The notes below the pieces were generated by a model. That model worked only from the letters and a program-made list of their open reading frames with translations. It did no database searches and was not told the origin of the DNA. A stretch of 64,000 bases of DNA from Lysobacter auxotrophicus. Lineage in GTDB: Bacteria > Pseudomonadota > Gammaproteobacteria > Xanthomonadales > Xanthomonadaceae. Position numbers and translations under genes: made by a program. Positions 35,859-39,048 of this stretch are shown in pieces. Within the stretch, counting starts at the first letter, position 1, and each line of letters starts with the position of its first letter. The stretch spans positions 2,542,001 to 2,606,000 of the forward strand of contig NZ_AP027041.1 of assembly GCF_027924565.1 (NCBI RefSeq). The letters run 5' to 3'.

Positions 35859-36118
35859 CGGATGGCTCCTGGTTGGGCGGGCGGCCCGCCGGGCGGCAGG
35901 CGTTCTGTCACGTTCATATGACTTTAGACGTGCGTGGCGCCAAGGCGGCAATGTCGATAGTCACGGGGGGCGCTGACGGCCCGCCTCCGCGAGAAGGCGG
36001 CGAATCGTGCCTTTCTACGCGTAGCCATGGCGTGGACCCATCAGTTCCGCATGCACGTGCATCGATAATCGAAGGGGTAAGCTCAGGCCGCGAACTGCCA
36101 GCACATAGGAGCGTCACG

Positions 36119-37042
36119 ATGCGCTACCACATGGCCCCGCTGCACATCGATACCGATTTTGATATTCGATTTGAGACGTACAAGTACGGAAATATTCCCA
36201 TCGACAGTGTCGAATGCGTTCATTGCGGTTTCCGCGCACTCGAATACATCGGCGACGAGGAGAGATGGCCAATCGGCTATCAGCAGTTTGCCGAGCACCA
36301 CGAGGCCAATGCCGACTACCTGCGACGCGAGGGCTTCACAAATGCTGAGCCCCATCTAAGGCTTCGCGGTGAGATGTCAGCCAGAACGTCGGCGCTTCAC
36401 ATCTGCCCGATGTGCGGTTGGTGGGTAGCGATAGATAAGGCAATCCTCCTTGCTGCCGGTTCCCAGGCTTGGTTGCTGTACCTGGTCTGCGCCTCGATCC
36501 TCATGGAGCTGGACACTAGTGACATCGATCAGCCTTTGACAGAAGTCAGGAAATTCCTACGCAGGCGATACGAATCAAGGTACTTGTTGAATCCTCGGGT
36601 CTACGAAGAAACAGTAGCGAGCGTTTTCAGAGACATCGGGTTCAGGTCCGAGGTGACGGCGTACACCAATGATGGAGGCATCGATGTAGTTCTGTATGGC
36701 TGCGACGACAGGAAGATCGGAGTGCAAGTAAAACGACAGCGGCGCTCGATAGAGGTGGAGCAGGTAAGAGCATTTCTGGGCGCGCTCACGCTGGGCGGCT
36801 TTGCGCACGGGCTCTTCGTGTCCACATCACCGTTTCAACGCGGCGCGGTGCACGCATCCGAGCAATCGACACGCGGCCACATTCCAATCGAGCTCGTCGA
36901 ACCGAACTGGCGCGCTCGCCGCCTTCCTTCTTTACCGCCCAGCCGTCCTTGTGCGGCGCCACGTGGATGTCCTTCTTCGTCATGTCTCAACTCCCGTAAA
37001 CGCCCCCCGACGACCCGTGGGCCGTCCTTAGGATCACGCTGA
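36119..37042 (+). CDS. Zinc-finger Mrr-type nuclease with chimeric C-terminus (mobile island)
   Basis: A 307-residue reading frame. Two CxxC pairs (C33/C36 in VECVHCG, C96/C99 in LHICPMCG) form a probable N-terminal zinc ribbon. Residues about 155-262 form an Mrr-like PD-(D/E)xK domain: VYEETVASVFRDIGF, D189 in NDGGIDVVLYG and Q203-V-K205 in IGVQVKRQRR, then FLGALTLGGFAHGLFVST. The natural domain appears to end at IPIELVEP. The last ~43 residues (WRARRLPSLPPSRP onward) are an antisense reading of a DUF2188 gene fragment, so the 3' end was replaced at a recombination junction. ATG at 36119 after GGAG. GC content is visibly lower than in its neighbours. Confidence 0.75.
   Translation: MRYHMAPLHIDTDFDIRFETYKYGNIPIDSVECVHCGFRALEYIGDEERWPIGYQQFAEHHEANADYLRREGFTNAEPHLRLRGEMSARTSALHICPMCGWWVAIDKAILLAAGSQAWLLYLVCASILMELDTSDIDQPLTEVRKFLRRRYESRYLLNPRVYEETVASVFRDIGFRSEVTAYTNDGGIDVVLYGCDDRKIGVQVKRQRRSIEVEQVRAFLGALTLGGFAHGLFVSTSPFQRGAVHASEQSTRGHIPIELVEPNWRARRLPSLPPSRPCAAPRGCPSSSCLNSRKRPPTTRGPSLGSR
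36909..36983 (-). pseudogene. 5' remnant of a DUF2188-domain gene
   Basis: On the minus strand, GGGAGTTGAGAC precedes an ATG and 25 codons reading MTKKDIHVAPHKDGWAVKKE then GGERA. This is the diagnostic N-terminus of DUF2188 proteins (HVxPHxxGWAVK). Full-length members have about 60-90 residues. Here the frame continues into sequence that on the plus strand encodes the nuclease, so the gene is cut about a third of the way in. The missing part is not found elsewhere nearby. Confidence 0.7.
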
Positions 37043-37684
37043 TGCGTCGCATGAGGGTGCACTTGCAGCCCGCAATGCGGGAGAAGAAGTCGCCGGTGCG
37101 TCCGCCACTGCGTGGGGACTTTCGCGCTCCACTCTCGGAGCTAGTCGAATCCAGCGTTCCATCGCCCGTTCGGCTGTAACGAGCGTGTCGTGACGTGCCA
37201 GGCAATAGAATGCCGCGCCGACAAAGAGAACAACATACAGCCAGACGACCCAGGACGTGAGCGCCCCACTTTTCGCGCCGAGCGCGAGATACGCTGCACA
37301 TGCGAGATGAAACTTAGCTCGGCAACGAACCTCCAACGAAAGGACGGTTGCATTGTTTGATATAGCATTCACAACTAAATGCGCATCCTTCATCGCCACG
37401 GGAGTGTCGCACGGCGGGAGAGTTGCGATCGCGTTGACGACTCCAGCTTGATGGACCGCATTCAACGAAACATAACGAAGCAGCCCTTTCGACGCCATGC
37501 TGGCGAGCCAGGCCGTTCCAAAACGTGACGCATGCCTTCGCCACTCATCCTTCAATGTCGGACAGCAAACCAGTCTGACGCTCCTATGCGAGAGGGCTAG
37601 CAGCGCACTCCGGCAGACTGACGATGCACCAGATCCACTTTCACCTGAGGCGCGCACAACACACGCATCAACTGTGAAGTTCAT
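37034..37684 (-). CDS. PIN-like nuclease with membrane segment, partner of the AAA ATPase
   Basis: A 216-residue protein. The first ~125 residues look like a PIN-type nuclease: D6 in MNFTVDACVV, E47 in LKDEWRRH, D100 in AMKDAHLVVNA, then VLSLEVRCRAKF with E118, which is the spacing and order of the acidic metal-binding residues. Residues about 143-162 (SWVVWLYVVLFVGAAFYCLA) form a membrane helix, with an Arg/Ala-rich tail after it. The start codon overlaps the ATPase stop by four bases (ATGA), so the two are coupled. No exact family recognised; the PIN call is inference from motif order. GC content is below the window average. Confidence 0.6.
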   Translation of the reverse strand: MNFTVDACVVRASGESGSGASSVCRSALLALSHRSVRLVCCPTLKDEWRRHASRFGTAWLASMASKGLLRYVSLNAVHQAGVVNAIATLPPCDTPVAMKDAHLVVNAISNNATVLSLEVRCRAKFHLACAAYLALGAKSGALTSWVVWLYVVLFVGAAFYCLARHDTLVTAERAMERWIRLAPRVERESPHAVADAPATSSPALRAASAPSCDASA

Positions 37685-39009
37685 AGTTGCTCTTCAGACA
37701 GAGACTGGCCATGGACTTCGGCAACGGCGTCCAAATAGGCCGTATCTGCGGCCAAACTGACCTCGTCAAAGTCAGCGGGCCAACTACCGACCGAACCATC
37801 CTTATCGAGTGTTTTCGAATCGACACGAGTTGCGCCACCCTCATTTCGAGAGAACCAGTTCAATACAACTTGATCGGATTCAATACGCCCCTGAGCGACC
37901 AGAGTTTGCACGCCTCTAATCAGAATCGCGCTATGCGTTTCCATGATCACCTGAACGCCCCTCACAATGGCATGCTGAATTACCTCGGCAAGCCGATATT
38001 GCGACGCTGGATGTAGGTGGAGCTCAGGCTGCTCAACGTAGACAATCTGTCCGGGACGTGCGACGAGTAGAGCAACCAAGAATGGTAATACTTGCGAAAC
38101 ACCTAAGCCGACGTCTGCGATACTTACTCGATCATCGATCGCGCTTACACCAGCTACTCGACTGACTTCAATTGCGACACGCGTATCCAGCTCTTCGGTA
38201 GCGCTCACGCCGGGGTTTAAACCGACTTGGGCTAGATTTTGGTTTAGCTGGCGCAGTTCCACGGCACCCTTTGCCTGCCAGGACTGAATAACGCTGGCGA
38301 CATAATTGTCGAAAGTACCAGGGAAACTGCTACCTACGGCCGTTGTTTTATATGTACGCTCCGGATTCCCTCGCAGCCCCGGGATATGTATAAGCGATTT
38401 AAGCGCTTCCGCAACGAACGAAGCGATATCGATATCAACGTTCGGCTTATTGCTTGCATCGCCTCCTTCAATGTCAACGGACAGCCCTATGAAGCAGCGA
38501 TCTCGGACCGTACCGAACGTTGGCTTCTTTGTTCGACTGATCTGAGACCACGCGCGCACCATGTTGTTTAGCTTCGACAGCGCCTGTATCTCATCGCTCT
38601 TGACGCTTAGGGAAACCCCCTCCTTAAGGGCCACGCCTTTGTCGTTAGGCCGACGCGGATTGCCAAGCGTTTGTTCGAAAAGCGCGAATCCTCTTGGAGC
38701 CTTCTTGAACAACGCAGAGTACATAGGTGCACCGCGCAGCCCAACAACGACGCCCACCCTGTCCTCGCCTGCGGTTCTTTGCCTAGCAAGGACCTGATCA
38801 GCAGAGGTAATGCGGACGTTCGGCCCCTCGAGCAAGAGTGGGCCTGGATCGAATGGGCACTCCAAGGTTTGTTTCATGAGGAGAAGCGGCTGCATGAGCG
38901 ACGACTTACCGGAACTGTTAGCGCCGGCAAGAATGGTCAAGCTCCCAAAGGATACTGACTTTGTTCCATAGAACGATTTGAATCCATGCAACCCAACGAC
39001 TTGAAGCAT
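37681..39009 (-). CDS. AAA/ABC-type ATPase (OLD/SMC-like, DUF3696-type), defence-like
   Basis: A 442-residue ATPase of the AAA_15/AAA_21 type. The Walker A motif is LAGANSSGKSSLM at about residue 33, the Walker B is QIVYVEQPELHLHP, followed by the switch METHSAILI, and a signature-like region is VSIADVGLGVSQVLP. The N-terminus GLHGFKSFYGTKSVSFG is typical of RecF/SMC-like heads. There is no TOPRIM domain, so the nuclease function must come from a partner, here the PIN-like gene that overlaps its 3' end. The start ATG at 39009 follows GGAGGAGTG. The gene is AT-richer than the neighbourhood (one sampled line is 48% GC). Confidence 0.85.
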   Translation of the reverse strand: MLQVVGLHGFKSFYGTKSVSFGSLTILAGANSSGKSSLMQPLLLMKQTLECPFDPGPLLLEGPNVRITSADQVLARQRTAGEDRVGVVVGLRGAPMYSALFKKAPRGFALFEQTLGNPRRPNDKGVALKEGVSLSVKSDEIQALSKLNNMVRAWSQISRTKKPTFGTVRDRCFIGLSVDIEGGDASNKPNVDIDIASFVAEALKSLIHIPGLRGNPERTYKTTAVGSSFPGTFDNYVASVIQSWQAKGAVELRQLNQNLAQVGLNPGVSATEELDTRVAIEVSRVAGVSAIDDRVSIADVGLGVSQVLPFLVALLVARPGQIVYVEQPELHLHPASQYRLAEVIQHAIVRGVQVIMETHSAILIRGVQTLVAQGRIESDQVVLNWFSRNEGGATRVDSKTLDKDGSVGSWPADFDEVSLAADTAYLDAVAEVHGQSLSEEQL

Positions 39010-39048
39010 CACTCCTCCGTTTGACTCAAGCAGAGTTGCCAGTTCCGG

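Follow-up and report, generated by a model that had tools for sequence, protein, structure and literature searches.

An OLD-type ABC ATPase paired with a predicted PIN-fold RNase: a candidate two-gene defence system in Lysobacter

In PARIS, an OLD-type ABC ATPase is encoded in an operon with a small nuclease, AriB, that cuts tRNA (PMC12409363). The prophage-borne WonAB combines an ABC ATPase with a nuclease; translation is blocked and the ATPase is required for toxicity of the nuclease (PMC12137116). OLD-ABC ATPases paired with PIN endoRNases have been reported computationally among BREX-associated effectors and were proposed to act as a suicidal backup (PMC12839542). In the PADLOC candidate HEC-03, the gene for a DUF3696 ATPase has that for a PIN-like protein (~177 aa, VIDTNVL start) immediately after it. 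No experimental test of an OLD-ABC and PIN pair was found in the literature searched, which leaves out most subscription papers. Here, we describe such a pair in a window of Lysobacter auxotrophicus DNA, by which we mean the whole 64,000-nucleotide stretch that was analysed (Table 1). The initial annotation had proposed an undescribed defence system at this locus, and this claim held in part. The architecture is already in the candidate list, since HEC-03A looks PIN-like by its motifs, and in the BREX-associated set (PMC12839542), but the 216-aa partner had no significant match in Pfam, PADLOC, NCBIfam or PHROGs. Most likely, the pair is a separate branch of the ATPase and PIN kind, already predicted by others and missed by current detection models.

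Table 1. Coordinates of the gene pair and of the features around it (positions in the window).
Feature	Position	Strand	Details
Low-GC insert	35972-39048	.	Between epimerase upstream region and icmF stop codon
Mrr-type nuclease ORF	36119-37042	+	Mrr_cat 1.8e-19; convergent with the pair
Remnant, presumably of DUF2188	36903-36987	antisense	First ~27 codons of a gene
PIN-fold protein gene (predicted fold)	37034-37684	-	216 aa
Hydrophobic segment	37196-37252	-	Residues 145-163 of PIN protein; window copy only
ATPase/PIN gene overlap	37681-37684	-	4 bases
OLD/DUF3696-type ABC ATPase gene	37681-39009	-	442 aa; ATG at 39009

The two overlapping ORFs were as the initial annotation had claimed, in length (442 and 216 aa) and in their 4-base overlap. 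A GTG one codon upstream of the ATG is an alternative start that gives a 443-aa ATPase, and in relatives the junction of the two genes varies between a ~12-base overlap and a separation by a few bases. No promoter match was found upstream of the pair, which may be transcribed by read-through from icmF. Judged by its sequence, the 442-aa protein is an intact OLD/DUF3696-type ABC ATPase. It matched AAA_21 (3e-24), AAA_15 (1e-18) and DUF3696 (1.4e-4) in Pfam, and NsnB (1.9e-51, the best match), HEC-03B (5e-38) and AriA (4e-22) in PADLOC. The best stretch of the HEC-03B match is the C-terminal part of the protein, and a true member scores 1e-133; the best stretch of the AriA match is residues 292-364. 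The Walker A (GANSSGKSS), Walker B (EQPELHLHP) and ETHS switch motifs named in the annotation were all present, and these and the signature-like IADVGLGVSQ were invariant or almost so in an alignment of 10 homologues. The role of the ATPase is likely that of sensor and regulator.

Having found no family match for the partner, we turned to its predicted structure. An AlphaFold2 model built from a 10-row alignment had a confident alpha/beta core, with block-mean pLDDT >80 over residues 1-120 and a predicted PIN core of approximately residues 1-150. In a Foldseek search, 7vwo, a toxin-antitoxin protein from mycobacteria, ranked first (E 1.8e-4) and most of the next matches were VapC toxins; VIA-align gave Z scores of 11.6 to 1w8i and 10.9 to VapC21 (5sv2). 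The model of the Anabaena homologue (L015) was better (pLDDT 89) than that of the window protein and aligned with a Z of 9.9 to VapC toxins and of ~8 to protein-only RNase P. Thus, modelling and both structural comparisons indicate that the partner has a PIN fold, in agreement with the annotation. Its ordered acids were also borne out: D6, E47 and D100 are invariant across 12 partner sequences, and the fourth acid, at position 118, is Glu in the window copy but Asp in each of the 11 others. RNA-acting proteins (VapC toxins, protein-only RNase P and Nob1) lead the structural matches, and VapC-type PIN proteins cut tRNA or rRNA. The kinship of these matches suggests that the partner would cut RNA, and on the modelled fold it is likely an RNase effector. 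The PIN protein had no match in phage records or plasmids, and a BFVD fold search gave no significant match. A lone weak match to 3eur (E 0.06), obtained with the partner profile in a PDB sequence search, was taken as chance.

The annotation had also held that the two genes belong together, and a survey of gene neighbourhoods upheld this. When GTDB genomes were scanned with the ATPase, nine loci were recovered, and full-length relatives at 40-44% identity were among them in four cases, from Chloroflexota, two cyanobacteria and Myxococcota; scans of viral contigs added further full-length relatives. Overall, the closest ATPase relatives share 37-43% identity with the window ATPase. In 12/12 relatives with downstream DNA, from three bacterial phyla and prophages, the PIN partner lies directly downstream of the ATPase; these 12 cases amount to ~11 distinct ones because L027 and L028 are near-identical, and L034 ends at a contig edge. 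The distance matrices of ATPase and PIN protein were correlated over 10 loci (r 0.917, Mantel p 0.0004). The pair is rare: it was found in 1/348 genomes of the order and 1/369 of the class, and the partner in 1/398 genomes of the phylum, the window genome alone each time.

We compared the pair with the described systems. A tree placed the ATPases of the pair, of Menshen and of HEC-03 in one group each, all with 100/100 support, and neither supported nor rejected a joint clade of pair and HEC-03 ATPases (p-AU 0.39). HEC-03 differs from the window pair not only in its separate, well-supported ATPase clade but also in its partner: the HEC-03A profile did not match the window partner (E up to 1) or four homologues (E up to 5), while hhalign between the window partner family and HEC-03A gave a probability of 5.7%, which speaks for neither kinship nor its absence. 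In addition, HEC-03 plasmid loci often add an RNA ligase, whereas neither this enzyme nor any other gene linked to RNA accompanies the pair branch. The OLD-ABC and PIN pairs of PMC12839542 share, by their published description, the domain pair of the window, and the sequence read beside the window pair and beside its relatives contained no BREX genes. The window ATPase is of the NsnB type found in Menshen, although its clade is distinct; membership of Menshen was rejected because DUF262 NsnA and NsnC are both absent beside the window pair and its relatives. PARIS resembles the window operon in its layout but its effector AriB is a Toprim protein, whereas the window effector is predicted to be PIN. 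Similarly, WonAB is prophage-borne like members of the window family, but its effector is a PD-(D/E)xK nuclease. In Gabija and class 2 OLD systems, the ATPase is fused to a Toprim domain and partnered by a UvrD-like helicase, and the window pair has neither: Pfam gave only AAA/SMC-type and DUF matches for the 442-aa ATPase, and there is no helicase gene in the operon.

The low-GC island described in the annotation was confirmed. GC3 is 0.55 in the pair, compared to 0.91 in icmF and 0.92 in the epimerase gene. The flanks of the insert align at 82-96% to 11 sibling species, with icmF kept at 90-96%, and the insert sequence is absent from all 11 apart from the DUF2188-like remnant. The GC3 gap fits recent horizontal acquisition of the pair. 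We found no convincing direct repeats flanking the insert, and in several siblings the epimerase gene sits elsewhere. A defence-type context was likewise corroborated: at the icmF flank of siblings, L067 has a dGTPase identified by PADLOC, L071 a zeta toxin and L070 a truncated OLD-like ATPase, L076 carries a KAP/PDC-S20 protein and a NucC-like nuclease there, and L073-L076 carry an Mrr-like nuclease (Pfam run on L075 only). Among the relatives, the L027 pair has genes for an HNH endonuclease and a terminase small subunit beside it, and the L029 pair has an HNH gene. Separately, the icmF 3' end (39048 in the window; L066-L076) is a variable-cargo site across the genus. The second nuclease noted in the annotation does adjoin the pair, as an Mrr-type ORF, but we rejected it as a third component because it was not seen beside the pair's relatives. 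This ORF runs through the remnant, which we take to be DUF2188, and its last ~45 codons are therefore probably non-native.

We consider it reasonably probable, at roughly 65%, that the pair is a two-gene, horizontally spread anti-phage system in which an OLD-type ATPase controls a PIN RNase and infection is aborted. An oligomer of the ABC ATPase would hold or control the PIN nuclease, and phage infection would cause the ATPase to activate or release it. The PIN protein would then cut RNA of the host, with tRNA or rRNA as the likeliest target, and translation would stop, aborting the infection. We infer the complex, the RNA substrate, the phage trigger and the abortive outcome. In PARIS and WonAB, an OLD-type or ABC ATPase governs a nuclease and translation is halted; by analogy, we infer that a PIN RNase is controlled in this way in the window pair. 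Because the WonAB nuclease needs its ATPase to be toxic, it would be unsafe to assume that the ATPase simply sequesters its partner. If this model is true, OLD-type sensors would be shown to drive PIN RNases too, and there would be a chance to learn which RNA a phage-triggered PIN protein cuts. The pair is compact and rare, crosses phyla and is unnamed in the family libraries tested; its homologues in cyanobacteria and prophages are open to direct testing.

The window copy itself could have lost its function after insertion while the family works elsewhere. Its C-terminus is unlike that of all relatives, the fourth acid has changed from D118 to Glu, and the next residue is Val; on these grounds the copy may be altered or decaying. 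Rearrangement of the insert is evident from the remnant and from the way in which the 3' end of the Mrr ORF overlaps it. However, both ORFs are intact, the ATPase retains every motif and the PIN protein three of its acids, and the window ATPase branch is not unusually long in the tree, and we regard loss of function as unlikely. The annotation had also proposed a membrane helix. The hydrophobic run exists, with a Kyte-Doolittle value of 2.16 over residues 145-163, but a membrane helix is not supported as a feature of the system: the nine homologues measured reached at most 1.36, and none (0/9) has such a segment. Most homologues have at this place a hydrophobic strand and then W-V-N-P, and in the window model the last PIN strand (148-150) falls, at low confidence, inside the hydrophobic run. 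A frameshift as the origin of the segment was rejected, because by eye the other two frames lack a WVNP-like stretch and similarity to L026 stays in frame up to W148.

Returning to the anti-phage model, we weighed two other functions for an intact pair. In a toxin-antitoxin-like addiction module, the ATPase would neutralise a PIN toxin and the pair would stabilise mobile elements, and any effect on phage would be secondary. Consistent with such a module, the PIN fold is nearest to VapC toxins and the pair is a small two-gene operon present on prophages. The ATPase, however, is of the OLD type and related in sequence to AriA and NsnB rather than a small DNA-binding antitoxin, and WonAB, an analogous system, requires its ATPase for toxicity; we judge an addiction module distinctly unlikely. 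Restriction-like targeting of invading DNA by the PIN-fold protein would accord with the frequent work of OLD family ATPases with DNA nucleases (PMC10568477). It is improbable given that the top structural matches are RNases, with no FEN/XPG-type DNase near the top of the match lists. That the pair is a separate OLD-ABC and PIN RNase class, recruited independently of HEC-03, and that the window copy has in addition gained a membrane anchor tying RNA cleavage to an envelope event, is very improbable.

Remoter ATPases carry other partners. A DUF262 protein and an NsnC-like protein accompany the ATPase in L018 and L019, in the same arrangement in Crinalium (L081), and in a Vibrio phage record (L083), where it is labelled Menshen. 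P2-EC5 prophage ORF555/ORF333 (L084 243-2913) is a related ATPase with a 333-aa partner, and related ~600-aa ATPases with a ~340-aa protein (L031 3433-6314 and L080 3001-5818) represent another partner type. On Aeromonas, Azotobacter, Tistrella, Rhodococcus and Acinetobacter plasmids, a DUF3696-type ATPase is followed by a ~175-aa protein, and the three of these proteins that were translated start with VIDTNVLLVAN. In PADLOC, the plasmid loci tested scored 1e-133 for HEC-03B and 3e-23 to 9e-28 for HEC-03A. In the first four of these genera, the next gene encodes an RNA ligase. HEC-03-like plasmid operons in which the ligase comes after the ATPase and the PIN-like protein (L077 4391-5629, L079 3809-5040, L085 3971-5187 and L086 3992-5172) suggest RNA repair coupled to RNA cleavage. 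On the Acinetobacter soli plasmid (L082 2095-3460), the record splits the HEC-03-like ATPase into two overlapping ORFs, a possible frameshift, and this split gene is followed by a PIN-like gene and then an HNH endonuclease gene.
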